Assembly (NCBI RefSeq): GCF_034298135.1
Contig: NZ_CP139575.1
Span: forward strand, 310,001 to 374,000
Source: Lactobacillus acidophilus
Lineage (GTDB): Bacteria; Bacillota; Bacilli; Lactobacillales; Lactobacillaceae
DNA: 64,000 nucleotides
Direction of reading: 5' to 3'
The notes under the pieces were generated by a model, which saw only the letters and a program-made list of their open reading frames with translations, was not told the DNA's origin and searched no databases. Below, one piece after another: positions 23,466-50,204 of this stretch (the first letter of the stretch is position 1; the number at the start of each line of letters is the position of its first letter). A program made the translations under genes and the position numbers.

Positions 23466-24674
23466 TCATTTTTTGAGGTGGGCCACTCTTACTACATCTC
23501 GTTCTATCATTAGTTCTTCATTGGTAGGGATGAGCATAACTGCGATTTTAGAATCGGGACAGGTAATTAGGCCAGCTTGATTAATTTTATTTTTTTCTAG
23601 ATCTGCTACTACACCCATGAATTTAAGTGTATTCATGACTTGAGCTCTGACACCAGCATCATGTTCACCAACGCCAGCGGTAAAGATGATACCATCTACA
23701 CCACCTAATTCAATAATGTAGGCACCTATATAGCGACAAATACGATTAATAAAGATGTTTCTTGCTAAATCAGCTCTTTTCTTTTTATCTCCACTTAAGC
23801 GAGCCATGTCGTCTCTTAAATCACGCATATCTGGTGAAATTCCGGATATGCCGAGTAAGCCAGAATTATTGTTTAAAATATCAATCATCTGGTTTCTATC
23901 AAGGTTTTCTTTTTCCATAATATAAGCTAATAAGGAAGGGTCGACATCGCCGGATCTGGTACTCATCGTTATTCCCGCAAGTGGGCTAAAACCCATTGAA
24001 GTATCAAATGATTTACTATCCTTAACTGCAGTAATCGATGCACCTGAACCGAGGTGACAAACGATTAATTTTAATTGATCTAGAGGCTTGTCTAATAGTT
24101 GTGCAGCTTTTTGAATTACGAAACGAACTGAGGTTCCGTGAGCACCATATTTTCTTGCTTTATATTTTTCATAGTATTTATAAGGAAGAGAATACAAATA
24201 ATGTACCGGATCAAGTGTCTGGTGAAAAGCAGTATCAAAGACGGCTACTTCAGGAACGTTAGGTAAAAGCTGGAGAAAAGCCTTAATGACATCAGCTTCA
24301 GGTACATTATGTAGTGGAGCATATTCTTTTAAGTCATAAATTTGTTGTAAATTCTTTTGATTAATTAATGTTGAGTCTTTAAACGTTTCACCACCAGCAA
24401 CGATTCGATGACCAATACCGATTATTTCATTGGATTCATTAATTACATGATATTTTTTTAAATTGGTCAGTAAAATCTTGACGGCTGTAGTTTGATCAGG
24501 AATCTCAACTTTCTCAGAATGAGCAGTTTTGTCAGCCAATTTTAATTCAAATGTAGAATCAGCTAAACCAACACGATCTGCCATTCCTTCGGCAATAACA
24601 TCTTCTTGAGGGAAGGAAAATACTTTAAATTTAAAAGATGAACTACCGGCATTAATTACTAAAATCTTTTTCAT
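23466..24674 (-). CDS. ackA: Acetate kinase
   Basis: Makes ATP and acetate from acetyl phosphate. The N-terminal NAGSSSFKFKVF, the GHRIVAGGE block, FDTAFHQTL and CHLGSGASITAV are family signatures, and 402 aa is normal. It is the last gene of the leftward operon with the transketolase halves and the FGGY kinase, 30 bases after the kinase. That position makes sense if the pathway ends in xylulose 5-phosphate and phosphoketolase, which yields acetyl phosphate. It is probably an extra copy beside a housekeeping ackA, which cannot be checked here. Confidence 0.93.
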   Translation of the reverse strand: MKKILVINAGSSSFKFKVFSFPQEDVIAEGMADRVGLADSTFELKLADKTAHSEKVEIPDQTTAVKILLTNLKKYHVINESNEIIGIGHRIVAGGETFKDSTLINQKNLQQIYDLKEYAPLHNVPEADVIKAFLQLLPNVPEVAVFDTAFHQTLDPVHYLYSLPYKYYEKYKARKYGAHGTSVRFVIQKAAQLLDKPLDQLKLIVCHLGSGASITAVKDSKSFDTSMGFSPLAGITMSTRSGDVDPSLLAYIMEKENLDRNQMIDILNNNSGLLGISGISPDMRDLRDDMARLSGDKKKRADLARNIFINRICRYIGAYIIELGGVDGIIFTAGVGEHDAGVRAQVMNTLKFMGVVADLEKNKINQAGLITCPDSKIAVMLIPTNEELMIERDVVRVAHLKK

Positions 24675-24704
24675 AACATCATCTCGTTATTCTTGTAAGT
24701 TAGA

Positions 24705-26156
24705 TTAAGATAAAATATTAATCCAATGACTCCATTCTTGTCGGTATTTTTGCGCGATATTTGAATTCATTCGTGTATTGTAAGCTTTCGATGATTGAAT
24801 ACCTGTTGTATGATTCATAGCATTCATCGCACTACCTACGGCACTTAACTCAGAAATATCTGCAACTTTTACTATTCTTTGAGTAATGTTACTTAAATAT
24901 TGCATTAAGTATTTGTTGTGAATCATACCACCATCGGTATGAATTTCATTATTTACTTTTGGATAAAGTTGCTTAAACTCAGAAAGAATATCAGCAATTT
25001 GATAAACTAATGAATTTAAAGTTGCTCTAACTAATTCTTTTTTACTAGTAGTAGAAGTCATACCTACAAAGGCGGCTTTCATGTCTGGTTTCCAATAAGG
25101 AGCGCCTAATCCAGCAAAAGCAGGAATTAAAATTGTATGGTCTTCAGGATTGGCAGTGAGCGCTAAATCAGCAGTTTCATTAGGTGTGTTGATCAAATGT
25201 AAATTATCTTTGAGCCAGGTAATGCAAGCACCAGCATAATTTATGTTTCCTTCAAGTACATATGAAGGTTTGCCATTTAAAGACCAAGCAATTGAGGTAT
25301 TAAGTTTATTATTAATATTAGCTGGTAATGAAGTACCTATATTAAGCATTACTGATGAGCCAGTTCCAAATGTAACTTTAAAATCACCAGCTTTAAAACA
25401 ACCATGAGCAAAAAGTGCAGCTTGTGAATCGCCTAAAACACTTAAAATTGGAATAGGATGTGGAAGTAGACCAAATAAGTTAGTATTTCCAAAATGACCA
25501 TTAGAATCTACAATTTGAGGAAGGCTTTCTAAATCTACTCCAAATATTTCACTTAAATTCTTGTCCCAATTTCCTGTTCGAATATTCATTAATTGAGTTC
25601 TGCAAGCATTAGATGGCTCGGTTTTGAATGATTTTCCGTCAGTAAGTTGATATATTAACCAGCTGTCCATTGTCCCCAAGCATAAGTCATTATTTTCGTG
25701 AGCTTGAATTACTCGAGGCTCATTTAAAAGCATCCATCCCCATTTGGCACCGGTAAAATATGGAGAAAGTGCTAATCCAGTTTTATCTTTAACTTCATTT
25801 TTAAGTTCAGGATAAGAAATTTTTTTGATTAATTTTTCAGCTCGATTATCTTGCCAAACAATTGTCTTACAGAGTGAATCACCAGTCTTTTTAGACCAAG
25901 CAGCTGCCGATTCTCGTTGGTTAGTGATTGCTAAGCCGATAAGTTGATCAGGAGAAACTTGTTCTAATACTTTTTTAAATAATTTTTGGAGATTTTCTTT
26001 AATTTCGCCTAGATCATGACTGACCCAGCCCTGATTATTAATAATTTGTTTATGAGGCAGAGCGGCTTTCCAAAAAATTTGATTATTCTGATCTACTAGT
26101 ATTGCCTTTGTACCTTGAGTGCTCTGATCGATTGCTAGTATATATTTTTTAGACAT
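24705..26156 (-). CDS. FGGY-family carbohydrate kinase, probable D-apulose kinase
   Basis: A 483 aa ATP-dependent sugar kinase. AIDQSTQGTKAIL (about residues 8-20) is the phosphate-1 motif; TNQRESAAAW and IVWQDNRA resemble glycerol kinases; GDSQAALFAHGCFKAGDFKVTFGTGSSV is the FGGY core. Sequence alone would allow glycerol or another polyol or ketose. The context, directly behind a split transketolase and beside an L-fucose-isomerase-like gene and an apiosidase-like hydrolase, points to phosphorylation of D-apulose to D-apulose 4-phosphate. It lies 14 bases after the transketolase half. The substrate is an inference. Confidence 0.75.
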   Translation of the reverse strand: MSKKYILAIDQSTQGTKAILVDQNNQIFWKAALPHKQIINNQGWVSHDLGEIKENLQKLFKKVLEQVSPDQLIGLAITNQRESAAAWSKKTGDSLCKTIVWQDNRAEKLIKKISYPELKNEVKDKTGLALSPYFTGAKWGWMLLNEPRVIQAHENNDLCLGTMDSWLIYQLTDGKSFKTEPSNACRTQLMNIRTGNWDKNLSEIFGVDLESLPQIVDSNGHFGNTNLFGLLPHPIPILSVLGDSQAALFAHGCFKAGDFKVTFGTGSSVMLNIGTSLPANINNKLNTSIAWSLNGKPSYVLEGNINYAGACITWLKDNLHLINTPNETADLALTANPEDHTILIPAFAGLGAPYWKPDMKAAFVGMTSTTSKKELVRATLNSLVYQIADILSEFKQLYPKVNNEIHTDGGMIHNKYLMQYLSNITQRIVKVADISELSAVGSAMNAMNHTTGIQSSKAYNTRMNSNIAQKYRQEWSHWINILS

Positions 26157-26170
26157 AAGATCACCTGCTT

Positions 26171-27112
26171 TTATTTAGCAAGAATTTTTCTAACAGATTT
26201 TTCAATTCCTTCAGCATCAAGACCATAATAATGGAAGACTTCGTCTTGTGTACCTTGGATAGCAGGTTTATCTGGAAAACCAAGGCTATTAAGTTTGGCA
26301 TGTCCATACTTAGCTACTTCGCTAGCAACTGCGGCACCAATACCATTGATTACATCGTGTTCTTCTATAGTGACAATTTGGTCAAATTCTTGAGCAAGTT
26401 TACCGATCATTTCTGTATCAATTGGTTTAATTGAGCCAAGGTCTACAACTTCGACATCGATGCCATCACTTGCAAGTTTTTCTGCGGCTTTTAATGTGAA
26501 GTATAAAGTCTCACCAGTTGAAATTAAGCAAATGTCTTTGCCAGGTTTAATAATTGTAGCCTTACCAGGAATAAACCCAAAGTCTTCGTGGTAAACATTA
26601 TCTAGCTTACGCTTACCAATACGAACATATGCTGGTTTGTTAGATTTTAATAGGTAGTTAAATAATGCTTTAACTTGGTATTTATCACAAGGTTGGTAGA
26701 CTTCAAGATCTGGAATAGCACGAGTTATAGCAACATCATTAAGAGAATGGTGAGTATTACCTAACCAGGTATAAGAGTTACCACCTGAAATACCAATTAA
26801 TTTAACGTTATTCTTGTTAAAGGCAACGTCAACTTTTACTTGTTCAATTGAACGCATTGCCAAAAATGCAGCAGGAGAGAAAACAAAGGGATGCTTACCT
26901 TCGTGAGCTAAACCAGCGGCAACTGTAACAGCATTTTGCTCAGCAATACCCATTTCAACTGTGCGATCAGGGTGAGCGTTAGTAAATGGAACTAAACCAG
27001 CAGAACCGCGAGAATCACAAGTTACTACTAATAGATCAGAATCAGTAGCAGTTGCTTTGTCTAAAGTATCGGCAATGACAGCATTTGCAGTTAATTTTTC
27101 ATCATTAGTCAT
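26171..27112 (-). CDS. Transketolase C-terminal half (pyrimidine-binding and C-terminal domains), AptB-like
   Basis: A 313 aa protein that forms one thiamine-diphosphate enzyme with the next gene upstream. The pyrimidine-binding domain has VEMGIAEQNAVTVAAGLA, with Glu contacting the cofactor, and the C-terminal domain starts near GKATIIKPGKDICLISTGET. Split transketolases occur in several pentose and ketose operons; in the D-apiose transketolase pathway subunits AptA and AptB cleave apulose 4-phosphate with glyceraldehyde 3-phosphate to give DHAP and xylulose 5-phosphate. It overlaps the N-terminal half by eight bases, so translation is coupled. Apulose specificity is inferred from context. 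Confidence 0.85.
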   Translation of the reverse strand: MTNDEKLTANAVIADTLDKATATDSDLLVVTCDSRGSAGLVPFTNAHPDRTVEMGIAEQNAVTVAAGLAHEGKHPFVFSPAAFLAMRSIEQVKVDVAFNKNNVKLIGISGGNSYTWLGNTHHSLNDVAITRAIPDLEVYQPCDKYQVKALFNYLLKSNKPAYVRIGKRKLDNVYHEDFGFIPGKATIIKPGKDICLISTGETLYFTLKAAEKLASDGIDVEVVDLGSIKPIDTEMIGKLAQEFDQIVTIEEHDVINGIGAAVASEVAKYGHAKLNSLGFPDKPAIQGTQDEVFHYYGLDAEGIEKSVRKILAK

Positions 27113-27938
27113 TGTTAAGTGCCTCCATTTGTGCGTCTAATTCGCGTAATCCTTCTTTGTATTCAATTTCTGTTGGAATCTTGTGGTGCCAATCAGCTCT
27201 GTTTTCTGCAACAGTGATGCCTTTACCTTTTATAGTGTTAGCAATAATCATTCTTGGCTTATTAGTGTCGTTAGGCTTAGTTAAAACGTCAACTAAAGCA
27301 CCAACATCATTACCATCAACTTCTTGAACGTCCCAACCAAAAGCACGGTATTTGTCGCCCAGTGGGTTAGAGCGCATAACTGAATCGGTTGTACCCGAAA
27401 TCTGTAAGTCATTATGGTCAACGATAGCAGTTAGGTTATCCAAATTGTAGTTACCAGCAGACATAGCTGCTTCCCAGATAGAGCCTTCAGCTTGTTCGCC
27501 ATCACCCATTAATACATAAGTGTGCTTTGGTGAATTATACATTTTAGCTGCTAAGGCAACGCCAACACCTAAACCAAGACCATGGCCCAATGAGCCGGTA
27601 TGAAATTCCATTCCTTTAACATCAGTAGTTGGGTGACCAATATATGGACTGTTGAAAGTTGAATATCTCTTTTCTAAGTCATTACGGTCAATATAGCCTT
27701 TATCGGCTAAAACTTCGTACCAAATTTCAACGGCATGACCTTTACTTTGGATATATGTATCAACGTCTTTTTGTCCAAAGTTATCTTTGTTTTGATTCAT
27801 TACACTGTAGTAAAGTGCAACTAAAATATCAGTACAAGATAAGTCTGAACCAGTATGTCCATTTTTGTGGTTATAAATTAATTCCCACGTTCTTTTTCTA
27901 AGTTCAACGGCTTTCTTTTTAAGATCAAGAATATCCAT
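27105..27938 (-). CDS. Transketolase N-terminal half (ThDP-binding domain), AptA-like
   Basis: A 277 aa pyrophosphate-binding half of transketolase. NGHTGSDLSCTDILVALYY, TGSLGHGLGLGVGVALA and the ThDP motif GDGEQAEGSIWEA...LTAIVDHNDLQ (GDG...N) are clear. The start is the ATG at 27938, with GAGGTG six bases before; a GTG three codons earlier falls inside that site. It is the first gene of the leftward operon. A LacI-type operator lies in the gap to the divergent regulator, which suggests induction by the pathway sugar. Confidence 0.87.
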   Translation of the reverse strand: MDILDLKKKAVELRKRTWELIYNHKNGHTGSDLSCTDILVALYYSVMNQNKDNFGQKDVDTYIQSKGHAVEIWYEVLADKGYIDRNDLEKRYSTFNSPYIGHPTTDVKGMEFHTGSLGHGLGLGVGVALAAKMYNSPKHTYVLMGDGEQAEGSIWEAAMSAGNYNLDNLTAIVDHNDLQISGTTDSVMRSNPLGDKYRAFGWDVQEVDGNDVGALVDVLTKPNDTNKPRMIIANTIKGKGITVAENRADWHHKIPTEIEYKEGLRELDAQMEALNND

Positions 27939-27966
27939 AAAAAACACCTCATTGTGATAAAAAAAC

Positions 27967-27982
27967 TTGTAATTGCTTACAA
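27967..27982. promoter_or_regulatory. LacI-family operator before the transketolase operon
   Basis: TTGTAATTGCTTACAA is an inverted repeat (TTGTAA/TTACAA arms) in the divergent promoter region. A related site lies before the isomerase. Confidence 0.6.
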
Positions 27983-28067
27983 AATGAGAATATCATGTTT
28001 ATAGTTAGTTTAGTCATATTAAATATTTAGTTTAGTTTAAATTAGTAAATTCGATAAGGTGGTTTAT

Positions 28068-29081
28068 ATGGACTTAAAAATGAGTGATATTGCCAAAATG
28101 GCTGGTGTTTCTAAAGCGGCTGTATCATTTGCTTTAAACGGTAAGCCCGGTGTAAGTGATGAAACGAGAAAGAAGATTTTTAAAGTAATTAAAGATCAAG
28201 GCTATGAGCCGCTACGCAAACACAAAAAAGGCGGCGTTAGAAAAATTGCCAGTATTAGTTTAATTATTATTCAAGATAGAACAGGGATGATGAATCGAAG
28301 CTATGCCAGTTTGCCATTTTTTGATACTTTGGTGTCTGAACTTTCACAGAATGTCAGTGGAGCTGGCGGGCAGATGCAGATTGTTAATTTAGATATCAAT
28401 CATTTACACGAAGGATTGAATAATGAAGCTTTACAACAATCAAAAGCGTCTATAGTTTTAGCAACTGATTTAAATCAAAAACAAGTTCAGTTAATTAATC
28501 GAAAATTGCGTAATGTGATTTTTGTTGATAATTATTTTGAGTATATTCAAGCCGATTTTGTTTCAATCGACAATTTTCAAGGAGCTTATAGGGCTGGAAA
28601 ATTCATTGTTAAAAAAGGTTATAGAAAGATTGGATATGTAGCATCAAATCATGCAATTTCTAATTTTTTACAACGTCGATCTGGTTTTAGAAAGGCAATG
28701 AGGGAAGCAAATATACAGATTCCACCGGAATATGTATTTAGTTTAAATCCGACTGAATTAAGAGGAAGTTTACCAGCTTTATTTAGACAAAAAAATAATT
28801 GGCCTGAAGCAATTTTTTGTGAAGATGACTATATGGCCCTACGTTTATTGAATGCATTAACAAGACAAGGTATAAAAGTGCCACAGGATATTGCTGTAAT
28901 GGGCTTTGATGACATTTCTGAAGACACAATGGTCATACCAGAATTAACTACAATACATGTTCCAATTACACAAATTGTTGATCAGGCAATTAATCAATTA
29001 CAGTGTAAGGTAGCAGATACTGATTGGTTACCTCAAAAATGTTTTATTTCAACTAAATTGATTGAAAGAGAATCACTTTAG
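28068..29081 (+). CDS. LacI/GalR-family transcriptional regulator of the apiose-type genes
   Basis: A 337 aa regulator with an N-terminal helix-turn-helix (MSDIAKMAGVSKAAVSFALNGKPGVSDETR, starting at residue 5) and a periplasmic-binding-protein-like effector domain (about 65-335, with FCEDDYMALRLLNAL and AVMGFDDISE). The start at 28068 has AAGGTGG five bases upstream. It is divergent from the transketolase operon and in front of the isomerase. Paired TTGTAA-type operators on both sides make it the likely local repressor, released by a pathway sugar; the effector is unknown. Confidence 0.87.
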   Translation: MDLKMSDIAKMAGVSKAAVSFALNGKPGVSDETRKKIFKVIKDQGYEPLRKHKKGGVRKIASISLIIIQDRTGMMNRSYASLPFFDTLVSELSQNVSGAGGQMQIVNLDINHLHEGLNNEALQQSKASIVLATDLNQKQVQLINRKLRNVIFVDNYFEYIQADFVSIDNFQGAYRAGKFIVKKGYRKIGYVASNHAISNFLQRRSGFRKAMREANIQIPPEYVFSLNPTELRGSLPALFRQKNNWPEAIFCEDDYMALRLLNALTRQGIKVPQDIAVMGFDDISEDTMVIPELTTIHVPITQIVDQAINQLQCKVADTDWLPQKCFISTKLIERESL

Positions 29082-29142
29082 TAGTTTAGCTTAATTAAGT
29101 AAAAATCTGATTGAATGGTCTCCAGGTTTAGTTTATATTTTT

Positions 29143-29162
29143 AATTGTAAGCGAATACAATT
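29143..29162. promoter_or_regulatory. LacI-family operator before the isomerase, upstream of the TnpB element
   Basis: AATTGTA-AGCGAA-TACAATT is a perfect arm repeat closely related to the site at 27967. The TnpB element separates it from the isomerase by about 1.5 kb. Confidence 0.6.
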
Positions 29163-29177
29163 AATTTAAATGGATTT

Positions 29178-30697
29178 AGGAGCTGGTTAACAGTTAATAA
29201 AAATATAGAAATATGTAGAAATTTATAGATGAAAACAAAAGATTAAGCTTGTTTAGAAAGTTAAACATGGAAAATAAGCTTTGATTCAATATTTACTTGT
29301 TTTGCTTCGTCTTCTTAGATAAACTTATGTTTGCATTCTGGGAGGTGAAGCAATGATTAAAACACAAGTAGTAAAGCTAAAAGTTAATAAGACCATACAA
29401 AAGCATCTTGATGCTTTATGTGACTATCGGCGATACTGCTGGAATAAAGGCTTAGAAACTTGGCAATTAATGTATGAAGCTCATACATTAAATAAAAAAG
29501 ATAATCCCAGTCCTAACGAACGCAGAGTCCGCGATGAACTAGTCGCAAATAAAGCTGACTGGCAATATGATTTGTCTGCTAGATGTTTACAATTAGCGAT
29601 TAAAGACTTAGCTAATGCTTGGAAGAATTTCTTTGATAAGGCTCAACCTGATTGGGGAATACCTAGTTTTAAATCAAAGAAAGCTCCCAGACAAGGCTTT
29701 AAAACTGATAGGGCTAAGATTGTTAATGGCAAGCTTCGCCTTGATCGTCCAAGAAGCATTTCAAAAGCAGATTGGTTTGATTTAAAAAGCTATGAAGCTC
29801 TAAAGATGAATGAAGTCAAAGTAATAAGTATCTTCAAAGAAAAAGGAGCTTATTATGCGGCTTTGCCTTATGAAGAAGAGATTTCAAGTAAGGCTAAAAA
29901 TCATCAAAAGACAGCAGTAGATGTCAATGTCGGTCACTTTAATTACACAGATGGCAAAATCAATGTTTTGCCTGCTAAATTGCAAAAGCTTTATAAGCGC
30001 ATCAAGCATTATCAAAGAATGTTAGCTCGTAAAAGAGAAGTTAACGGTAAGTTAGCTACAAAATCAAATAATTACTTTGCAGTGAGAACCAAATTGCAAA
30101 GAGATTATCGCAAGGTAGCTAATATCCAAAATGATCTTTTACAGCAGTTCACTACTAAGCTTGTAGATAATTACGACCAAATTGTAATTGAAGACTTAGC
30201 AGTAAAGCAAATGATGATGACCCATGTAGCTTCCAAAGGAATGCAGAGATCGCTGTTTAGTAGATTTAGGCAGATATTAACTTATAAGTGTAATTGGTAT
30301 GGCAAAGAATTGATCTTAGCTGATAAAACATACCCATCAACTCAAAGATGTGCTGCGTGCGGTTATGTCAAAAAAGGCGAGGAAAAGATCACTTTGCAAG
30401 GTAACAAAAAGCATGGTACCAAACATAATGAATATATCTGTTATGAGTGTGGCTACAAGAACGATCGAGATAAAAATGCGGTTTTAAATCTTTTAGCTTT
30501 AGCAAGATAAAAAGAAATAAAGACAACGGGGCTGGCTAAGCCCTTAAACTGTAAGAGCTGGTCAATGTGATTACTCCTATTTGGAATATCAGAATACTAG
30601 TGAAGACGACAGTAAATGAAACAAAGAAAGGAAAAATATATCTTTCTGATATGTAGAAAATTCGTCTTCTACATATTTCCATGTTTTATATAGCAGG
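29178..30697 (+). mobile_element. TnpB-only insertion element, copy 1 (IS605/IS607 or IS1341 type)
   Basis: The boundaries come from comparison with the second copy: sequence identity starts at AGG (29178) and ends at AGG (30697), giving 1,520 bases. It carries tnpB but no TnpA transposase, so it would need one supplied in trans. There is no target duplication; the end dinucleotide GG is shared with the target. The right end (30511-30697) contains paired ATATGTAGAA/TTCTACATAT arms and is where a guide RNA (omega/reRNA) would be encoded. The element lies between a sugar operator and the isomerase start. Confidence 0.85.
29353..30510 (+). CDS. tnpB: TnpB RNA-guided nuclease, copy 1
   Basis: A 385 aa TnpB. 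The RuvC-like catalytic residues are all present: D190 in AVDVNVGHF, E280 in IVIEDLAV, and the Asp in NDRDKNAVLNL (about 371). A zinc ribbon is formed by C333, C336, C363 and C366. The N-terminal helix-turn-helix-like part is complete. TnpB proteins use an RNA from the element's right end to cut the empty donor site, favouring retention of the element. The protein is identical to copy 2. GGAGGTG precedes the ATG. Confidence 0.92.
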   Translation: MIKTQVVKLKVNKTIQKHLDALCDYRRYCWNKGLETWQLMYEAHTLNKKDNPSPNERRVRDELVANKADWQYDLSARCLQLAIKDLANAWKNFFDKAQPDWGIPSFKSKKAPRQGFKTDRAKIVNGKLRLDRPRSISKADWFDLKSYEALKMNEVKVISIFKEKGAYYAALPYEEEISSKAKNHQKTAVDVNVGHFNYTDGKINVLPAKLQKLYKRIKHYQRMLARKREVNGKLATKSNNYFAVRTKLQRDYRKVANIQNDLLQQFTTKLVDNYDQIVIEDLAVKQMMMTHVASKGMQRSLFSRFRQILTYKCNWYGKELILADKTYPSTQRCAACGYVKKGEEKITLQGNKKHGTKHNEYICYECGYKNDRDKNAVLNLLALAR

Positions 30698-30706
30698 CTA
30701 TTTTTG

Positions 30707-32152
30707 ATGGCTGATAAAAACTACTTAAAACAAATTAAAATTGGTTTTGCACCAACTAGAAGAAACATTTTCTCAGCTAATGCAGCAATTGAATTTGCAG
30801 ATAAAACTCGTGAAAAGTTAGACGAATTAGGTGTTAACTACGTTGACATTAAGGACGTAAATGATGATGGTCTTCTTTATGATGACGAAGGTCTTGAAAA
30901 GATTACTAAGAAGTTTAAAGAAGAAAAGATTGATGGCTTGTTTATTGCTAACGAAAACTTTGGTACTGAATATGAAGTTGCTCGCTTAGCAGCTAAATTT
31001 GATGTTCCTGTGTTACTTTGGGGGCCAAGAGATGAAGCGCCTGCTCCTGATGGTTCAAGACGGCGTGATACTCAATGTGGTTTATTTGCGATTGGTAAGG
31101 TATTACGCCATTTCAATGTTCCATTTACTTATATTAAAAATAGTGATATTGATGATCCTTCATTTAGTCGTGGTGTAATTGACTTTATTAAAGTATGTAA
31201 TGTAGTCAAGACATTTAAAAATACTCGTATTTTACAAATTGGGCCACGTCCATTTGATTTCTGGTCAGTAATTGTTAATGAAGGTGAATTGCTTGAAAAG
31301 TTTGGCATAGAATTATCACCAATTCCATTGGGTGAATTAACTTCATACATGAATGACTTGATTAAGAAAGATGATCCACGTATTGAAGAAACTAAGGACG
31401 TTTATAGAAAATGGGCTGATATTCAAATTGAAGATAGGGACTTCACCAAGGTTGCGGCTTTAAAACTTGCTATGCAAGACAAGATGAAAGAATACGGCTG
31501 TAATTGTGGTACTATCCAATGTTGGACTGAATTGCAACGTGAAATTGGTATTTTACCTTATGCTTCTGAAGCTCTTCTTCAAACTGAAGGGATGCCAGTA
31601 ACCTGTGAAACTGATATTAATGGTACAATTTCAGAGGTTTTAGCTGAGGCTGCAACTTTAGGCGAAGAAAGAGCCTTGTTTGCAGACGTAAACTGCCGCC
31701 ACCCAGAAAATGAAAATGGTGAATTATTGCAACACTTGGGCACATTTGCGTTCCAAACTGCTAAGAATCGTCCAGTTTTACCACCATCTCACTTTGTATT
31801 TGATTATCCTGGTTCTGCTGCGTTCCAGGTTAAGGACGGAACTTATACTTTAGTAAGATTTGATGGCGATCATGGTAAGTATTCAATGCTTATTGGTAAT
31901 GCTAAGACTTGTGAAGGCCCTTATGAACAAGGTACTTATGCTTGGTTCCAATTTAAGGACTTGAACAGATTTGAAGCTAAGTACGTTTACGGTTCATACA
32001 TTCACCACATGGCAGGTGTACGTGCTGATGTAGTACCAATCTTGGCTGAAGCTGGTAAGTATATAAATGTAAAACCAGATTATTATGATCCGATTAAAGA
32101 TAAGGTGGCAGCGTACTGGTATGGTGATTTGAATACTATTTTAGATGATTAA
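30707..32152 (+). CDS. L-fucose/L-arabinose isomerase-fold sugar isomerase, candidate D-apiose isomerase
   Basis: A 481 aa aldose-ketose isomerase of the fucose-isomerase superfamily. The N-terminal Rossmann-like domain has IANENFGTEYEVARLAAKFDVPVLLW, and the C-terminal part has EGMPVTCETDINGTISEVLA, metal-ligand candidates ADVNCRHPEN, and HHMAGVRADVVPIL. The start is the ATG at 30707; its only ribosome binding site is the AGG at 30695-30697, the last bases of the TnpB element. In this gene set it would convert D-apiose to D-apulose. L-fucose, L-arabinose or another pentose remains possible. Confidence 0.8.
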   Translation: MADKNYLKQIKIGFAPTRRNIFSANAAIEFADKTREKLDELGVNYVDIKDVNDDGLLYDDEGLEKITKKFKEEKIDGLFIANENFGTEYEVARLAAKFDVPVLLWGPRDEAPAPDGSRRRDTQCGLFAIGKVLRHFNVPFTYIKNSDIDDPSFSRGVIDFIKVCNVVKTFKNTRILQIGPRPFDFWSVIVNEGELLEKFGIELSPIPLGELTSYMNDLIKKDDPRIEETKDVYRKWADIQIEDRDFTKVAALKLAMQDKMKEYGCNCGTIQCWTELQREIGILPYASEALLQTEGMPVTCETDINGTISEVLAEAATLGEERALFADVNCRHPENENGELLQHLGTFAFQTAKNRPVLPPSHFVFDYPGSAAFQVKDGTYTLVRFDGDHGKYSMLIGNAKTCEGPYEQGTYAWFQFKDLNRFEAKYVYGSYIHHMAGVRADVVPILAEAGKYINVKPDYYDPIKDKVAAYWYGDLNTILDD

Positions 32153-32173
32153 AAATTTTATATTTATAAATAA

Positions 32174-32222
32174 AAGAATGACAAATTCAGCATTTTGAAG
32201 ATGGAATTTGTCATTCTTTTTT
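32174..32222 (+). terminator. Intrinsic terminator after the isomerase
   Basis: AGAATGACAAATTC and GAATTTGTCATTCT arms with a 15-base loop are followed by a T run. Confidence 0.9.
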
Positions 32223-32288
32223 GTATTTAATACTTGATTTAAATATAACTAAATTCTAACTAAAATAAAAGTATTTACTTAATATCTA

Positions 32289-32337
32289 TTGAAAGCGATT
32301 ACACACGCGAGTATTATACGAAATGTAAAGCGTTTAG
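32289..32337 (+). promoter_or_regulatory. rbs operon promoter with two cre sites
   Basis: TTGAAA (-35, 32289-32294), a 17-base spacer and TATTAT (-10, 32312-32317) form a good promoter. A CcpA site TGAAAGCGATTACA (32290-32303) overlaps the -35. A second, TGTAAAGCGTTTAG (32324-32337), overlaps the transcription start region. Strong glucose repression is expected. Confidence 0.7.
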
Positions 32338-32389
32338 TAAAAAAAGTGTTTGATTTAGGTAAACATAATTTTTATGAGAGGAGGAAATT

Positions 32390-33316
32390 ATGAGTTCAAA
32401 GATATCTATTTTGGGAAGTATTAATTTGGATAGCACTTATCATGTAGATAAAATTCCATTACCAGGTGAAACGATTCATGTTAATAAAAAGACATTTGCT
32501 GCAGGTGGCAAAGGAGCTAATCAAGCAGTGGCGGCAAAGCGTAGTGGTGCAACGGTAAGCTTTATTGGTGCTGTAGGTAATGATGCTGCCGGTAAATATA
32601 TGTTGAATGAATTAGAGAAAGAAAAAATTAATTTGTCAAATGTGCAGATAAAAGATACAGCCCAAACGGGGACAGCTACCGTCTTATTAGATGAAAACGG
32701 GCAAAATAGTATTTTAGTTTACGCAGGTGCTAATGGGCTAATTGATAGTAGCCAGATTAATAAAGCAGAAGATACAATTGCAAATTCCGATTATATTATT
32801 GCTCAATTTGAAACTCCAATTTCAGCAATAATATCAGCTTTTACAATTGCAAAAAAACATGGCGTTACAACAATTCTAAATCCGGCTCCTGCTACTACAA
32901 TAGATAATAAATTGCTGAAAGTTACAAATATTATTGTACCTAATGAAACAGAAAGTGCAGCTATTACTGGAATAAATGTAACCGATGAAGAATCAATGCA
33001 ACGAACTGCAAGATATTTCAGAGAAAAAGGAGTAAAAGTAACTATTATCACTTTAGGCTCAAGGGGAGTTTACTATTCAAGTCCTACTGAAAATCGGTTT
33101 ATTTCAGCATATAAAGTTAATGCAGTAGATACAACTGGAGCTGGTGATACATTTATTGGCGCCATGACTTCTGTATTAACTACTGATTTGTTAAATATTT
33201 CTGCAGCAATTGATTATGGTCAACAAGCTTCATCAATTACAGTACAAGGAATAGGAGCTCAACCGTCTATTCCAACAAAAGAAAAAATAAAACAGGTATA
33301 CAGAATGAGTGACTAA
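32390..33316 (+). CDS. rbsK: Ribokinase (PfkB family)
   Basis: Phosphorylates D-ribose at O5, or a similar sugar. The 308 aa length is normal. [22 protein letters not shown], the [16 protein letters not shown] motif (about residues 37-52) and the anion-hole motif [12 protein letters not shown] (catalytic Asp, about 248) are typical. AGGAGG precedes the ATG. It is the first gene of an rbsKDACB operon and ends inside the rbsD translation start region. In this context it may serve ribose released with plant material or another pentose; RbsD argues for ribose. Confidence 0.92.
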
Positions 33317-33317
33317 A

Positions 33318-33713
33318 ATGAAAAAAACTGGAATTTTAAATTCAGATATTTCTAGAGTTGTTGCTGATATGGGGCATATGGATTGGTTAGGAATTGGTGA
33401 TGCTGGCACACCGGTTCCAAAAACTACAGAAAAAATTGATTTGGCTGTTAGTGCAGGAATGCCATCTTTTATAAGTGTTTTGAAAGAAGTTTTAAAAGAG
33501 TTACAAGTTCAAAAGATTTATGTTGCAGATGAGATAAAGGATAGCAATCCTAAACAATTAGAAAATATAAAGAGAATTTTACCGGATGTTGAAATTAAAT
33601 TTATTCCTCATACTCAATTAAAGAAAAATTTAAGCGAAGCAAAAGCTTTTATTAGAACTGGAGAAGAAACTCCCTTTTCTAACGTAATTCTTGAGAGTGG
33701 CGTTATATTTTAG
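33318..33713 (+). CDS. rbsD: D-ribose pyranase
   Basis: Interconverts ribose pyranose and furanose forms so that ribokinase and transport work efficiently. [20 protein letters not shown] holds the catalytic His, and the GDAGTPVP loop is family-typical. The start is the ATG at 33318 (131 aa), just behind the rbsK stop; a GTG three codons earlier overlaps rbsK and gives an untypical N-terminus. Confidence 0.92.
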
Positions 33714-33728
33714 GAAGTGAATCTACTA

Positions 33729-35206
33729 ATGAAAATTGAATTGAATGATATTAAAAAAATTTTGGTACTAATAAAGTATTAAGAGGTGTGGATTTTAAAG
33801 TTAATTCAGGAGAAGTTCATGCTTTAATGGGAGAAAATGGTGCTGGAAAATCAACTTTAATGAATATTTTAACAGGTCTATTAAAAAAAGATGCTGGTTC
33901 AATTAAAGTTGACGGACAAGAAACAACATATGCGAATGCACTGGACGCTGAACATCATGGTATCAGTTTTATTCATCAAGAAATGAATAATTTCCCAGAA
34001 ATGAGCGTTGTAGATAACATTTTTTTAAATAAAGAAATTAAAAATAAATTCGGCTTGATGAATCAAAAATTAATGAAGAAGAAGGCAAAAGCATATTTAG
34101 ATAAATTAGGTTCGGATATAGATGTAGATATGAAGATTGGCAACTTGACAGTGGGACAACAACAAATGATCGAGATTGCTAAATCTTTAATGACAAATGC
34201 AAAAATAATAATTATGGATGAACCAACAGCAGCATTGACTGAAAATGAAACAGATATTTTGTTTAAAACTATTCGTGAATTAAAAAAACAAAATGTAGGA
34301 TTTATATATATTTCACATAGAATGGAAGAATTATGGGAAATATGTGATCGAGTAACAGTTATGCGAGATGGTATATCTATCAATACGTATAATACAAAAG
34401 ACGTAAAAGAAGATAAAATTGTTCATGATATGGTTGGTAGAGATATAGGTGATTACTATCCAGAAAGAAAACCAAAATTAGGCCCTGTAGCCTTAAAAGC
34501 TGAAAATTTGTCAGGGGAAAAATTCCATAATATCTCTTTTGAAGTTCATGAGGGTGAAATTCTTGGATTTTCTGGCTTGATGGGCGCTGGTCGTACAGAA
34601 ACAATGAGAGCTTTGTTTGGAATAGATAAACTTACTAGCGGAAAAATTTATCTTGAAGGAAAAGAGGTAAAGCTAAATAGTCCTAGTGATTCTATTAAAC
34701 ATGGTATTGGTTTTTTAACTGAAGATAGAAAAAATGAGGGATTAGTATTAGATCAATCTTTAGAAGATAATATTGCTTTACCAAGTATTGATGGTTTTAG
34801 AAAACATGGAATTATTGATCAAAAAGCAGAAGATAAATTTGCTGAGATGCTGATGAAACGTTTAACTGTAAAAGCACAAAGTGCAGATGTTTCTGCAAGA
34901 AGTTTATCAGGAGGTAATCAACAAAAAGTTGTTTTAGCTAAATGGGTAGGAAGCGGATCAAAAGTTTTAATTTTGGATGAACCAACTCGAGGTGTAGATG
35001 TTGGTGCTAAAAAAGAAATTTATGAATTGATGAATCAATTAACTGACAGACATGTAGCAATTATTATGGTTTCAAGTGATTTGCCTGAAGTGTTAAGTAT
35101 GAGTGACAGGATTGAAGTTCTATATGAAGGAAAACAGATGGGAGTTGTTGATGCAAAAGGTGCCACTCAGGAGCAAGTAATGAAACTAGCTACGGGAGGA
35201 AAGTAA
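33729..35206 (+). pseudogene. rbsA: Ribose-type ABC transporter ATP-binding protein, frameshifted near its start
   Basis: The double-ATPase of a sugar ABC importer. From the ATG at 33729 (AGGAAG upstream) the frame reads MKIELNDIKK and then shifts in an A7 run (33753-33759). Adding one A gives FGTNKVLRGVDF and a 492 aa protein, the normal RbsA size. Downstream everything is intact: Walker A GENGAGKSTL, signature VGQQQMIEIAKSL, Walker B MDEPTAALT, and a second domain with LSGGNQQKVVLAKW. Unless the run is misread, translation from the native start stops after 17 codons and the product would lack its first strand and depend on an internal start. Confidence 0.85.
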
Positions 35207-35207
35207 A

Positions 35208-36171
35208 ATGAATAAAGTGAAAACAAAGAGAAAATTTGATTTTACTAAGTACATGGCATTAATAGCTTTAATAGTTTTAGTAATAATTATTACAGCTTTA
35301 AATCCACAATTTATTGCCCCCCAATAATTTATTAAACTTATTACGTCAAGCTTCGGTTAATGCTTTAATTGCGTTTGGTATGACGTTTGTAATTTTAACG
35401 GCTGGTATCGATTTATCTGTAGGCTCAATTCTAGCTTTTACTGGTGCAATTATAGCCATGATGATTTTAAATGGTACTCCTGCATGGTTAGCTGGTTTTA
35501 TAGGTTTAATGCTTGGTGCTGTTCTAGGTGCCATAAACGGTTTGTTTATTACTTGGGGTAGAGTAACGCCATTTATTGCTACATTAGCTACGATGACTAT
35601 TTGGAGAGGCGCTACTTATGTATTTACAGGTGGTAACCCAGTTACTGGGGGAAAAATGAATACAAGTTTCTTCTTTCAATTTATTGGGCAAGGTTACTTA
35701 TTTGGAATTCCGTTTCCAGTCATTATTACGTTAATCGCTTTTATAATTTGTTATATTTTACTTCATAAAACTGCATTTGGTCGTAAAATATTTGCTCTTG
35801 GTGGTAATGAGAAAGCTGCTTTTGTTGCGGGTGTAAAAACTAAAAAACTTTTAATTATAATTTATACTATTTCAGGATTATTAGCAGCTCTTGCCGGTTT
35901 TATTTTAACTTCAAGATTAGGATCAGCACAACCAGATGCGGGTATGTCATATGAAATGGATGCCATTGCCTCAACAGTTATTGGTGGTGCTAGTCTAATG
36001 GGTGGTAAAGGTAGAATGTCAGGCACATTAGTTGGTGCTTTACTTATTGCTTCTTTAAGTAATGGTATGAATTTATTAGGTATTAATAGTTTTTACCAGC
36101 AAATTGTTAAAGGTGTTGTAATTTTAATTGCTGTTATGATAGATTCTCAAACTCAAAGAAATCGTGAATGA
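35208..36171 (+). pseudogene. rbsC: Ribose-type ABC transporter permease, frameshifted after the first span
   Basis: The membrane subunit of the same importer. The ATG at 35208 (GGAGG upstream, one base after the rbsA stop) opens MNKVKTKRKFDF and a first hydrophobic span. The frame breaks in a C6 run (35317-35322): with five C it reads NPQFIAPNNLLNLLRQASVNALIAFG and gives about 320 aa, as expected for RbsC. The rest shows about seven more hydrophobic segments, TAGIDLSVGSILAF, and the family motif VIGGASLMGGKGRMSGTLVG. As written the protein stops after about 38 residues. Confidence 0.85.
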
Positions 36172-36200
36172 AAAGTAGTATAAATTGAGGAGAAAGAAAA

Positions 36201-37187
36201 ATGAATTTTAAACGTTTTTTGAAAATTACTACAGTTGCGTCGATTTTAGTTTTAGCAGGTGGAATTCTAGGAGGTTGTGGTTCTACAGGTTTAAGTAATG
36301 GATCAGGATCGTCTGATAAAGTGACGAAGAAAGCACCAAAAAATTTAAAAATTGGTGTATCTGTTTCAACATTAACCAATCCTGCATTCGTTAATTTGAA
36401 AAATGTAATTAGTAATTATGCCAAGAAACATGGCTCAAAAGTTATTGTCGATGATGCAAATAATGATACATCAAAGCAAAATAATGATGTAGAAGATTTG
36501 ATAACACAAAGAGTGGATGCATTAATTATTAATCCATGTGATTCATCCGCAATTTCTGCAGTTGTTAAAAAAGCTAACGAAGCGAATATTCCTGTAGTAT
36601 GTGTAGACCGTAGTGCGGACTCAGGTAAAGTGATCTCAACGGTTGCTTCAGATAATGTTGCTGGTGGTAAAATGGCAGCAAATTGGTTAGTTAAGACATT
36701 AGGAGAGAATGCTAAAGTAGCGGAAATTCAAGGTATTCCAGGAGCATCTGCTACACGAGAACGTGGTAAAGGTTTTGATAGTATTGGCGATAAGAAATTA
36801 GATATTGTAACAAAGCAGACAGCTCAATTTGATCGTGCAAAAGCTTTAACAGTAACTGAAAATATTTTGCAAGCACATAGAAACATTAAAGGTATTTTTG
36901 CTCAAAATGATGAAGAAGCAGTTGGTGCTGCTCGTGCTGTGAAAGCTGCTAATAAGAAAATAACTATTATTGGTTTTGATGGGGCGCTTGCTTGTTTGAA
37001 TTTGATTCAAAAGGGTCAAATTACTGCTACTGTAGGTCAACAATGGAATAAGATAGGTCAACAGTCAGTTCAAATGGTTTATGATTACTATCAAAATAAA
37101 AAAGTTCCAAAAAATGATAAAGTTCCAGTAAAAATTATTACGAAAAAGAATGTTAGCGAATTTAAGAAGCAGGTTTATGATAAGTAA
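36201..37187 (+). CDS. rbsB: Sugar ABC transporter substrate-binding lipoprotein, RbsB-like
   Basis: A 328 aa exported sugar-binding protein. The signal peptide ends at the lipobox LGGC (Cys about residue 26), followed by a Ser/Gly linker. The peripla_BP_4 fold follows from about residue 48, with IGVSVSTLTNPAFVNLKN, LIINPCDSSAIS, VCVDRSADSG and GFDGALACLNLI around the binding cleft. AGGAGA precedes the ATG. It is the last gene of the rbs operon. Its partners rbsA and rbsC carry frameshifts, so the importer may not work. Ribose is the default substrate; apiose is possible from the neighbours. Confidence 0.88.
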   Translation: MNFKRFLKITTVASILVLAGGILGGCGSTGLSNGSGSSDKVTKKAPKNLKIGVSVSTLTNPAFVNLKNVISNYAKKHGSKVIVDDANNDTSKQNNDVEDLITQRVDALIINPCDSSAISAVVKKANEANIPVVCVDRSADSGKVISTVASDNVAGGKMAANWLVKTLGENAKVAEIQGIPGASATRERGKGFDSIGDKKLDIVTKQTAQFDRAKALTVTENILQAHRNIKGIFAQNDEEAVGAARAVKAANKKITIIGFDGALACLNLIQKGQITATVGQQWNKIGQQSVQMVYDYYQNKKVPKNDKVPVKIITKKNVSEFKKQVYDK

Positions 37188-37241
37188 TATTTTTGGCTTC
37201 TATAAATACGCTTACTAAAAAGTGATTTAATTAAATAAAAC

Positions 37242-37307
37242 GGATTGTTACATTGAGTTGGCAAGACCAAATAGGCAAGTATTATGGCTTATTTGGCCTT
37301 GTTTTTT
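37242..37307 (+). promoter_or_regulatory. LicT-type RNA antiterminator (RAT) overlapping a terminator
   Basis: GGATTGTTACATTGAGTTGG, running on to CAAGACC at 37268, matches the RAT hairpin recognised by LicT/BglG antiterminators. Its 3' side overlaps a terminator whose arms are CAAGACCAAATA (from 37262) and TTATTTGGCCTTG, followed by T6. The apiosidase-like gene would be transcribed past this point only when the antiterminator is active. The partner site is at 38701. Confidence 0.85.
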
Positions 37308-37319
37308 AGGAGGAAAATA

Positions 37320-38600
37320 ATGCTCACAACTAAAGATAAATATTTATATAAAGATGGAAAAAGATTCTTTTATTTAGCAGATACATGTTGGGGTGCTTTC
37401 GGTAGTATTGATATGCCGGATTGGCGCTATTATCTTGATTCGCGTAAAGCTGCAGGTTTTAACACGATTCAAATCAATGTTTTGCGTCAATGGGATTCAA
37501 GCTTACCAATCAGAGAGCCGTTTGCTATTACTAATCATGAAGATGGTACTTATGAATATGATTTTAATAAAATTAATGAATCATACTTTGACAATGCAGT
37601 TAAGATGTTGGAAGAAATGCAAAAAAGAGATATGGTTCCGGCTTTAGTTCTTTTATGGGGTAATTTTGTTCCAAATACATGGATGAGTAGATTTATTAAG
37701 AATAATATTATGCCTTTTGAACAAATCAAATCATATGTTACTTATGTAGTGAATAAATTTAAGAGATTTAATCCGATTTGGATTGTTAGTGGGGATGTTG
37801 GTTTTACAGATATGAAAGGACAAAAGAAAGATCCTGCGATTAAATACTATCGTGAAGTAATTAAAACTGCCCAAGAGATTGATCCAGAAGATTTATATAC
37901 TTTTCATATCAATGGTGAATCAACTGAAGTTCCAGATGAATTATTCAAGAAGACAGATTTCTTTTTCTATCAATCAGGCCATGGATATACTGGTCAATCT
38001 ACAGCATATACAATCCCACAAAAAATGCGTAAAGATAACTATGGAGGCCCAATCATTGATGCAGAACTTTGTTATGAAGGACTAACTAAAATGAAGGCTC
38101 CGACTGCTGAACGATATAGTGCTTTTGATGTTAGAAGGGCTGCTTGGCGTGCAGTACTTTCTGGTGCAGATGCCGGATTAGGATATGGCAGTTTTGGTAT
38201 TTGGCCATGGAAAGATACTGTACGTCCTGAAGAAAAGTTAGATTCTAACTTTAATGTACAGTTAGTACCATATGATTGGCGAGATTGTTTGACTTTCCGT
38301 GGTGCAAAAGATGTGGGATTTATTAAAGATTTTATCAGTGAGTATGCTTCTAATGGATTAAATCCAATTAATGATCCAGTTAAAGATAATCCAGAAATTA
38401 GAGCTGCTCAAAATGATAAGTATATTTTTATTTATTTACCAACTTCAGGAATTATTAATTTTGATGATTTAGGAATTAAGGTTAATGAATGTAAGATAAT
38501 GGATCTTGATAAGCGTCGAATTATTCAAGGTAAAGTTGAAAATAATGTTTTACAAATGTCATCTGTTATTGAAGACGAATTAGTAATTGTAGGAAAGTAA
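37320..38600 (+). CDS. Apiosidase-like glycoside hydrolase (DUF4038, GH140-like), cytoplasmic
   Basis: A 426 aa TIM-barrel glycoside hydrolase of the DUF4038 family, which includes GH140 apiosidases that cleave D-apiose from rhamnogalacturonan II. Motifs are FFYLADTCWGAF at residue 16, LDSRKAAGFNTIQINVLRQW, and WIVSGDVG with D159, the likely acid/base. DAELCYEG has E249, the likely nucleophile. There is no signal peptide, so it acts inside the cell on an imported glycoside. The ATG at 37320 has AGGAGG seven bases before; an ATG at 37284 lies inside the terminator. It sits behind rbsB and is controlled by the RAT. Apiose specificity is inferred from family and neighbours. Confidence 0.8.
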   Translation: MLTTKDKYLYKDGKRFFYLADTCWGAFGSIDMPDWRYYLDSRKAAGFNTIQINVLRQWDSSLPIREPFAITNHEDGTYEYDFNKINESYFDNAVKMLEEMQKRDMVPALVLLWGNFVPNTWMSRFIKNNIMPFEQIKSYVTYVVNKFKRFNPIWIVSGDVGFTDMKGQKKDPAIKYYREVIKTAQEIDPEDLYTFHINGESTEVPDELFKKTDFFFYQSGHGYTGQSTAYTIPQKMRKDNYGGPIIDAELCYEGLTKMKAPTAERYSAFDVRRAAWRAVLSGADAGLGYGSFGIWPWKDTVRPEEKLDSNFNVQLVPYDWRDCLTFRGAKDVGFIKDFISEYASNGLNPINDPVKDNPEIRAAQNDKYIFIYLPTSGIINFDDLGIKVNECKIMDLDKRRIIQGKVENNVLQMSSVIEDELVIVGK

Positions 38601-38652: not shown

Positions 38653-38680
38653 TTGCAATCGCTTACATATTTGCTATACT
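38653..38680 (+). promoter_or_regulatory. Promoter and cre-like site of the licT-PTS operon
   Basis: TTGCAA (-35), a 16-base spacer and TATACT (-10). TGCAATCGCTTACA overlaps the -35 and nearly matches the CcpA consensus. Confidence 0.6.
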
Positions 38681-38769: not shown

Positions 38770-38790
38770 TTGTTGAAAGGTATGAAGATC

Positions 38791-41842: not shown

Positions 41843-41844
41843 AG

Positions 41845-42786: not shown

Positions 42787-43248
42787 TCTTAAAAGGTGGA
42801 ATTTAAATTATGAAAAGATTACTTATTAGAGCAGATGATCTAGGATATGCTAGAAGTGTGAATTATGGGATATATGATTCAGTTCATCAAGGAATTATCA
42901 ATAATGTAGGTGTTATGGTGAATATGCCTGAAACACAAATGGGTTTAGATTTATTGAAAAATGAAAATATTGATTTCGGCTTACATACTAATATTTCAAA
43001 TGGAGCTCCTATTTTGTCTTCTAATGAGGTACCTTCGTTAGTAGGTGACAATGGTAATTTTAGAAGTTCAAAGGAATATCGTAAAAATTATGTTGACGGT
43101 AAAAAAGATATTATCGCTTTAAATGATGTAGTTGCTGAAATTGAAGCACAATATAAAAAATTTATTGAATTAGTTGGTAGAAAGCCAGACTATTTTGAAG
43201 GACACGCAGTAATGAGTGATAATTTCGAAAAAGGACTAAGGATTGTGG

Positions 43249-48787: not shown

Positions 48788-48810
48788 AAGTTTAGTTCCT
48801 TCTTTATAAA

Positions 48811-48904
48811 TGTAACGGATTACATTACTATTATACAGCGATTAATGATAATTATTAGTTTAGCACTAATTAAGCAAATTTACATTGTAATGTAACCGGT
48901 TACA
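48811..48904. promoter_or_regulatory. Two palindromic operators in the divergent LacI/MFS promoter
   Basis: TGTAACGGATTACA (48811-48824) and the perfect TGTAACCGGTTACA (48891-48904), 80 bases apart. The distance and similarity fit looping by one LacI-type repressor. Confidence 0.65.
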
Positions 48905-48963
48905 TATTATGATGAGAATGTAATAAATCAAGTGAGATGCGAGAAACGTTAGGAGGAAAACTT

Positions 48964-50187: not shown

Positions 50188-50204
50188 ATATTAGGAGATT
50201 AAAT

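Follow-up and report, generated by a model that had tools for sequence, protein, structure and literature searches.

A predicted D-apiose cluster of the AptAB transketolase type in Lactobacillus acidophilus and its relatives in Bacillota

Introduction

Which sugar is served by a Lactobacillus acidophilus gene cluster that brings together a split transketolase, a sugar kinase, an isomerase, a ribose-type transporter and an apiosidase-like hydrolase? The cluster lies in a window of 64,000 nucleotides, which spans positions 310001-374000 of a genome assembled as a single contig (1,978,847 bases), and all the named parts are intact open frames between 23466 and 38600 of that window. The minus strand carries, from 27947 down to 23466, the aptA-like, aptB-like, FGGY kinase and acetate kinase genes; the plus strand carries, from 28059 to 38600, lacI, a TnpB gene, the isomerase gene, rbsKDACB and a DUF4038 gene. 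Further along the plus strand, 38770-42753 encodes an antiterminator, a beta-glucoside phosphotransferase system (PTS) and an esterase. Another DUF4038 gene stands with MFS and LacI genes at 47828-51737. An earlier sequence-only reading of this DNA had listed the split transketolase, FGGY kinase, isomerase, LacI, rbs-type operon and DUF4038 protein, and intact frames and family matches bear this list out.

Plants contain apiose in the rhamnogalacturonan II of their pectin, and many of their flavour and flavonoid glycosides carry it too. In the known pathway, D-apiose is converted to D-apulose and then to apulose 4-phosphate, which a transketolase turns, with glyceraldehyde 3-phosphate, into xylulose 5-phosphate and dihydroxyacetone phosphate. 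Carter et al. reportedly described this route, the AptAB transketolase pathway, in 2018. From the sequence comparisons given below, we consider it very likely that the cluster is a Gram-positive form of this pathway, provided with Gram-positive input modules. Apiose is the best substrate because the transketolase falls in the AptA clade, the gene order agrees with the apt clusters of Enterobacterales, clostridial clusters bridge the two arrangements, and DUF4038/GH140 genes are tightly linked to the core. The same four lines support the earlier preference for apiose over ribose, xylulose or erythrulose.

The split transketolase and its gene company

In a 34-row transketolase tree, the window N-terminal half and 15 other core copies form a clade with the AptA proteins of E. 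coli SE15, Rahnella, Klebsiella and Sodalis (support 100/98). Five other split transketolases of the order make up a separate clade (99/96), and nine full-length transketolases make up another (100/100). For the C-terminal half, the basis is 36% identity to E. coli AptB together with gene order. By sequence, therefore, the two-subunit transketolase is assigned to the AptA/AptB family, the AptA half by the tree and the AptB half by identity and gene order. The two genes overlap by 8 bases. Comparing the window proteins with apiose-pathway enzymes, as the sequence-only reading had proposed, gave identities of 44% to AptA, 36% to AptB and 39% to the ABC ATPase and permease of the E. coli cluster; the kinase scores higher against glycerol kinases.

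Plasmids of Rahnella and Sodalis carry, in this order, genes for a solute-binding protein, DUF2291, two ABC proteins, a SorC-type regulator, aptA, aptB, a fucose-isomerase-family protein and an FGGY kinase, with one small hypothetical gene in between in Sodalis; Klebsiella has the same set with one Rpn-family gene between. Identities of Rahnella to E. coli are 79% (aptA), 76% (aptB), 72% (kinase) and 72% (regulator), the E. coli SE15 cluster extending from ECSF_RS02670 to RS02715. This gene order places a member of the superfamily of the window isomerase at the spot expected for an apiose isomerase. The E. coli cluster served as the query for the D-apiose pathway in PMC13001218, whose text reports that D-apiose as the only carbon source supported growth of the cluster-bearing strains tested, from E. 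coli and E. fergusonii, but not of K-12; the same text does not name SE15 among the strains grown, and describes the Escherichia cluster as being without the isomerase gene apsI of Pectobacterium.

In the bridge clusters of Ruminiclostridium cellobioparum (L087) and a Eubacterium (L092), an isomerase of the window type leads AptA, AptB, the solute-binding protein, DUF2291, both ABC genes and the kinase. Their AptA proteins are 49% and 47% identical to that of E. coli, respectively, and the solute-binding protein is 47% identical to its E. coli counterpart.

The window cluster resembles the AptAB pathway in combining an FGGY kinase, a two-subunit transketolase and a ribose-type ABC transporter, and like the Pectobacterium form it includes a gene for an isomerase. 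It differs in having a LacI and not a SorC-type regulator, an isomerase 24-26% identical to those of the Enterobacterales plasmids, a linked PTS, esterase and cytoplasmic GH140 protein, an operon that includes acetate kinase, and a probable outlet through phosphoketolase.

The isomerase and the kinase

The isomerase has no Pfam match at 1e-5; its match to Fucose_iso_C, at 2e-4, falls short of the curated cut-off, and all 27 aligned relatives match the same model at E up to 1 (best 4e-7). E302, D328, H434 and H435 are invariant in the alignment of relatives, and these Glu, Asp and His positions presumably have a functional role. Neither a profile search (E 0.01) nor a single-sequence search (E 0.001) found a match in the PDB. 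Assignment to the fucose-isomerase family comes from sequence profiles. The sole NCBIfam match at 1e-5 is sulfoquinovose isomerase (SftI), at 96.7 bits against a cut-off of 700, and membership of the SftI family was accordingly rejected: the Fucose_iso_C region and the Glu, Asp and His positions are kept, whereas the score lies far under the cut-off and the gene company is another. Relatives in Zymomonas and Chlorohelix also have different gene company.

The best NCBIfam model of the kinase is glycerol kinase, under the cut-offs of two models (460.6 against 590 bits and 430.6 against 498). The genome's own housekeeping GlpK reaches 726 and 857 bits on these models, far above the cut-offs, and the window kinase falls outside the housekeeping GlpK clade in the tree. 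GlpK is thus the nearest curated family, from which the window kinase differs by both scores and by its clade. An origin from glycerol kinase would be chemically sensible, because apulose ends in C(OH)(CH2OH)2 and can be seen as a 2-substituted glycerol.

Conservation of the four-gene core

Scanning named genomes with the isomerase as bait gave at least 595 matching stretches, 586 of them encoding a relative; the best 80 were kept, which are nearest relatives and not a random sample, and their gene content was surveyed by tblastn. This survey, the neighbourhood comparison suggested earlier, found the isomerase, both transketolase halves and the kinase together in 73/80 loci, the N-terminal half being present in 79, the C-terminal half in 76 and the kinase in 73. 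Among loci of at least 19 kb, the core is complete in 48 of 49. LacI genes were found in 63 of the 80 loci, GH140 in 20, a beta-glucoside-type PTS gene in 16, DUF2291 in 14, a DUF5060 protein within reach of the core in 13, rbsK in 13, rbsD in 12 and a BD-FAE-type esterase in nine.

These loci span Lactobacillus, Companilactobacillus, Lactiplantibacillus, Enterococcus, Streptococcus, Lactococcus, Blautia, Butyrivibrio and Ruminiclostridium. The core is also found in Listeria, and a few records with it are titled as members of Actinomycetota, Synergistota or Chloroflexota. The core runs through Bacillota and is not special to lactobacilli. Among the matches listed, the nearest named isomerases are those of L. 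colini, L. helsingborgensis, L. melliventris, L. pasteurii and L. jensenii, and 13 of the 75 searched genomes of the window's genus encode the isomerase.

Several loci depart from the usual layout. A clostridial locus (L106) has two split transketolases (516-2306 and 3821-5604), one on each side of the isomerase. In G211, where GH140 would be expected after the core, genes for an Asp/Glu-racemase-family protein and for one of GH127 type stand instead (L045:4115-6757). Genome G191 holds two core copies (L046 and L049, on contigs C3 and C12), with isomerases 64% and 59% identical to that of the window, each copy with its own LacI and GH140.

Linkage to predicted apioside hydrolases and input modules

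The DUF4038 protein matches the GH140 apiosidases of known structure, PDB 8t9w ('Apiosidase'), 4qfu and 3kzs/5msy, sharing the PF13204 domain; the GD motif and the glutamate of the IDxE stretch line up with theirs, and these motif residues are presumably catalytic. With this catalytic domain and its acidic motif residues, it is predicted to cleave apiosides. It differs from these apiosidases in being distant (52.6-59 bits), in having no evident signal peptide and in adjoining a PTS. By eye, an evident signal peptide is absent from both window hydrolases and from three aligned relatives, and the glycosides would therefore be imported first. Since the GH140 gene stands next to a PTS, its natural substrate may be a 6-phosphorylated apioglucoside.

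Co-occurrence was counted in 395 genomes of the order, the identical set being used in both searches. The isomerase was found in 26 genomes, PF13204 above its cut-off in 24 and both in 23, where fewer than two shared genomes would be expected by chance. Because the genomes are related, the genus-level figure is the fairer one: among 80 genera, 14 have the isomerase, 12 have DUF4038 and 11 share them (hypergeometric p 4e-10). Left out of this count were a genome whose PF13204 match is below the cut-off (G123) and two Lactobacillaceae proteins of 21-22% identity to the isomerase (G157 and G346), with no transketolase in the surrounding 17-19 kb. In 22 of 24 cases, the isomerase and DUF4038 genes lie at most 7 kb apart, and the other two pairs are on separate contigs. 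DUF5060 is found in four of the 395 genomes, all of which carry the isomerase. The 30 Lactobacillales loci divide into 19 with GH140, four with the DUF5060 protein only and seven with neither.

The window has all three kinds of input module that recur in Lactobacillales. The first pairs a PTS and a DUF4038/GH140 protein, in many cases joined by an esterase; the PTS is of the beta-glucoside type in the window, of the PTS_EIIC family in L069 and L039, and of the sorbose type in L046. The second is a permease with a DUF5060/DUF4038/DUF5605 protein, the permease being MFS by Pfam in the window and in L061, and a gene of like size taking its place in L059 and L060. The third is the rbs set, without GH140 in L063, L100 and L036; this set also stands beside the core in L052, L053, L057, L063 and L100. 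The window block has the gene content of an rbsKDACB ribose operon, with RbsK and RbsD above a cut-off, and differs from it in standing between the isomerase and the GH140 gene. The rbs genes may import ribose alongside or in place of apiose.

Alternative substrates and points against apiose

Next after apiose comes an island for ribose or ordinary pentoses, a reading that we hold improbable, in which rbsKDACB would take up and phosphorylate ribose and the transketolase halves would serve the pentose phosphate pathway. The rbsKDACB set is complete, RbsK and RbsD score above a cut-off, the solute-binding protein is nearer to RbsB, the nearest model of LacI is that of RbsR and no ordinary transketolase was found in this genome (G000). 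Ribose would, however, leave the isomerase, the kinase and GH140 unexplained; the core is kept in 73/80 loci against 13 for rbsK and 12 for rbsD, a second ribokinase stands beside RpiA elsewhere in the genome, and the N-terminal transketolase half groups with AptA and not with full-length transketolases.

Slightly less probable again is that the same core acts on another branched or short sugar freed by the DUF4038 enzymes, apiose being incidental. The DUF4038 proteins have few solved relatives, and the neighbouring glycosidases vary among loci (GH78, GH127, GH29, GH1); on the other side stand the AptA-clade transketolase and a gene order shared with clusters that have been linked to D-apiose growth. 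A sulfoquinovose island, with isomerase and split transketolase acting on a sulfonated sugar, is so improbable that we set it aside: sulfoquinovose isomerase is the sole NCBIfam match of the isomerases of the window, Rahnella, L087 and L053, and that pathway also has a two-subunit transketolase, but the isomerases score 83-117 bits against a cut-off of 700, the core includes a sugar kinase that the sulfo-transketolase route is not known to need, and no sulfoquinovosidase was found in the part of the neighbouring genes scanned with Pfam.

Several observations weigh against D-apiose as the substrate. The window kinase scores up to 329 bits against solved glycerol kinases and 287 bits against E. 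coli aplK. When 11 cluster kinases were scanned against the GlpK models (window, aplK, Rahnella, L087 and seven more), four passed at least one cut-off, those of L087 and L083 on both models and those of L105 and L034 on one; the L087 cluster has the apt-type cassette. The cluster kinases form at least two groups, their shared origin with aplK is weakly supported (86/81) and the L087 kinase is unplaced. Judged by these scores and trees, the kinase family is not cleanly separable from glycerol kinase in all loci, and some clusters may hold a true glycerol kinase.

The isomerase is distant as well: at about 24-26% identity, its grouping with the Enterobacterales plasmid isomerases (100/99) sits on very long branches and lends the apiose reading support that stops short of proof. 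Rahnella transporter proteins are just 25-56% identical to those of E. coli, and the window solute-binding protein is closer to RbsB than to the apt-type protein. The seven Lactobacillales loci with neither hydrolase show no DUF4038 gene, two of them being on short contigs, and acetate kinase is found in only one of the 80 loci. Finally, the TnpB element parts the isomerase from its operator, and expression of the isomerase or of the pathway may be low in this strain.

Regulation and the TnpB insertion

The best NCBIfam model of the cluster regulator is RbsR, far under its cut-off. The pattern TTGTAAGCRAWTACAA, allowing two mismatches, has four matches in the 64 kb, where a mean of 0.56 is expected and none of 100 shuffles reaches four. 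All four are inside the cluster, and the two exact ones (27967 and 29145) flank lacI, in agreement with the matching operators noted earlier on both sides of this gene; as the pattern was written from these two sites, only the other two are independent. Nine related loci were scanned with up to three mismatches. A site lies between the transketolase and lacI genes in 5/9, two of these sites falling slightly within the tkt frame at its longest. A site separates lacI from the isomerase in 7/9, and one stands before licT in four of the five loci showing licT and before rbsK in two of three. Three of the four window sites fit the consensus of the CcpA catabolite-responsive element (cre) or miss it by one base, 29145..29160 being one that fits. 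CcpA catabolite control is therefore not separable from LacI control here.

In the interval from lacI to the isomerase gene (29082-30703), the TnpB element, which runs in the same direction, separates the second operator from the isomerase and has inserted at the ribosome-binding site. Four relatives without TnpB were compared at the junction; relatives have about 100 bases in this interval, and the AGGAGG of L053 and L054 is AGCAGG in the window. L. jensenii DSM 20557 (L064) and L. helsingborgensis Bma5 are among the carriers of the cluster that lack the insertion. The isomerase frame is intact despite the insertion.

Probable phosphoketolase outlet and proposed pathway

The genome encodes one phosphoketolase and four acetate kinases, one of these in the cluster, and the transketolases found in it are the split enzyme and a Dxs-like protein, with no ordinary one. 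Xylulose 5-phosphate therefore probably leaves through phosphoketolase. In L. selangorensis (L059), the core is immediately followed by a phosphoketolase gene and an acetate kinase gene, the latter truncated where the contig stops; with L060 and L067, phosphoketolase is found within the locus in three of the 80 loci and in none of the other 77. The Dxs-like protein has 580 residues (G000:C1:1476016-1477758; L184:517-2259) and scores above the NF008968 cut-off.

Gene families, AptA ancestry, synteny, co-occurrence and the gene inventory were computed; we infer the substrates throughout, and likewise the regulation and the direction in which metabolites flow. Apiosides would enter through the PTS or through the MFS permease of the second module and be hydrolysed in the cytoplasm, by the GH140 and DUF5060/DUF4038 proteins; the rbs-type ABC transporter may take up free apiose. 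Conversion of D-apiose to D-apulose would fall to the fucose-isomerase-family enzyme, and the glycerol-kinase-derived kinase would phosphorylate one of the two CH2OH arms, which resemble a 2-substituted glycerol. The split transketolase would then shift the two-carbon unit of apulose 4-phosphate to glyceraldehyde 3-phosphate, giving dihydroxyacetone phosphate and xylulose 5-phosphate. Phosphoketolase most likely splits the latter into acetyl phosphate and glyceraldehyde 3-phosphate, returning the acceptor, and acetate kinase would make ATP from the acetyl phosphate. By our own arithmetic, each apiose would yield one lactate, one acetate and about two ATP. LacI would repress the gene set.

Features of the locus and neighbouring genes

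Table 1. Predicted genes and sites of the cluster and its surroundings, in window coordinates
Feature	Position	Strand	Basis
ackA, acetate kinase, last gene of the transketolase-kinase operon	23466..24674	-	TIGR00016 2e-143; 30 bases after the kinase gene
GlpK-related FGGY kinase, predicted D-apulose kinase	24705..26156	-	FGGY_N/C; 33% to E. coli aplK
aptB-like, C-terminal half of split transketolase	26171..27112	-	PF02779, PF02780 (Transket_pyr/Transketolase_C); 36% to E. coli AptB
aptA-like, N-terminal (thiamine diphosphate-binding) half of split transketolase	27105..27947	-	PF00456 (Transketolase_N); 44% to E. coli AptA
Operator-like palindrome before aptA, TTGTAATTGCTTACAA	27967..27982	.	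Pattern scan
LacI-family cluster regulator	28059..29081	+	PF00356, PF13377
Operator-like palindrome before the isomerase, TTGTAAGCGAATACAA	29145..29160	.	Pattern scan
TnpB, IS200/IS605-type element	29353..30510	+	PF07282, PF01385
Fucose/arabinose-isomerase-family protein, predicted D-apiose isomerase	30704..32152	+	Fucose_iso_C; ATG at 30707 the likelier start
Operator- or cre-like site before rbsK	32289..32304	.	2 mismatches
rbsK-like ribokinase	32390..33316	+	TIGR02152 above cut-off
rbsD-like pyranase/mutarotase	33309..33713	+	NF008761 above cut-off
rbsA-like ABC ATPase	33788..35206	+	39% to ABC ATPase of E. coli apiose cluster
rbsC-like ABC permease	35314..36171	+	39% to permease of E. coli apiose cluster
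rbsB-like solute-binding protein	36201..37187	+	NF007936 1e-80, under cut-off; 29% to solute-binding protein of E. coli apiose cluster
DUF4038/GH140-like hydrolase	37284..38600	+	PF13204 'Apiosidase' 2.9e-86; ATG at 37320 the likelier start
Operator- or cre-like site before licT/PTS	38653..38668	.	2 mismatches
Antiterminator, presumably LicT/BglG-type (named from sequence)	38770..39645	+	Homologue before PTS gene in L032, L033, L052, L054-L056
Beta-glucoside-type PTS transporter, predicted apioglucoside importer	39617..41842	+	TIGR01995 above cut-off
BD-FAE-type esterase, predicted deacylation of imported glycoside	41845..42753	+	PF20434 8.5e-25
Second LacI regulator	47828..48787	-	PF00356
MFS permease of second input module	48937..50187	+	PF07690
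DUF5060/DUF4038/DUF5605 putative glycosidase	50205..51737	+	PF16586, PF13204, PF18310; relative PDB 4n0r

The PTS protein has 741 residues, about 110 of them before the usual IIBCA start, and this extra N-terminal part carries a second EIIB-like motif (HCVARLRF besides HCVTRLRF). Beyond the esterase lies a YdjC/ChbG-like deacetylase gene (42810-43256) of just 148 residues against a model of 249, which is apparently shortened and is adjoined by a transposase gene (43284-44666), presumably of the IS3 type. Between the two apioside modules, an alpha-L-rhamnosidase gene (45061-47850) may serve rhamnosylated plant glycosides.

Novelty and implications

The pathway type is known, and the window cluster is a variant of it. 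Degradation of apiose by gut Clostridia is stated in PMC13001218, citing its reference 61, and lactobacilli, Listeria, Firmicutes and Bacillota were all absent when its main text was searched for these terms. The screen described there required 40% identity to the E. coli proteins, including the kinase and both transketolases, a threshold that the window AptB-like half (36%) and kinase (33%) would fail. Among the titles listed in literature searches, none dealt with apiose catabolism by lactobacilli, which is weak evidence of absence, as most subscription journals were outside the coverage of the search. Two further papers gave nothing of use here: PMC11539071 deals with a commercial mixture of enzymes, and PMC9319371 refers to apiose just as a linkage in pectin.

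A fuller proposal, which we hold tentatively and put somewhat below an even chance, is that lactobacilli ferment apiose by a short cycle, with glyceraldehyde 3-phosphate as the carrier, the split enzyme as the sole transketolase of the cell and phosphoketolase returning the carrier. The cycle would be fed by interchangeable modules, including a PTS that gives 6-phosphorylated apioglucosides to a cytoplasmic GH140 enzyme, and the DUF5060/DUF4038/DUF5605 family would be a second kind of apioside hydrolase.

If the assignment is right, it would show which lactobacilli and other Bacillota may live on apiose and would give a candidate gene for each step. Where Listeria and Monoglobus records, for example, annotate a 'glycerol kinase' and an 'L-fucose/L-arabinose isomerase' next to a split transketolase, these would then be apiose genes, and a function would be predicted for the DUF5060/DUF4038/DUF5605 family, whose solved relative 4n0r is labelled 'putative glycoside hydrolase'.

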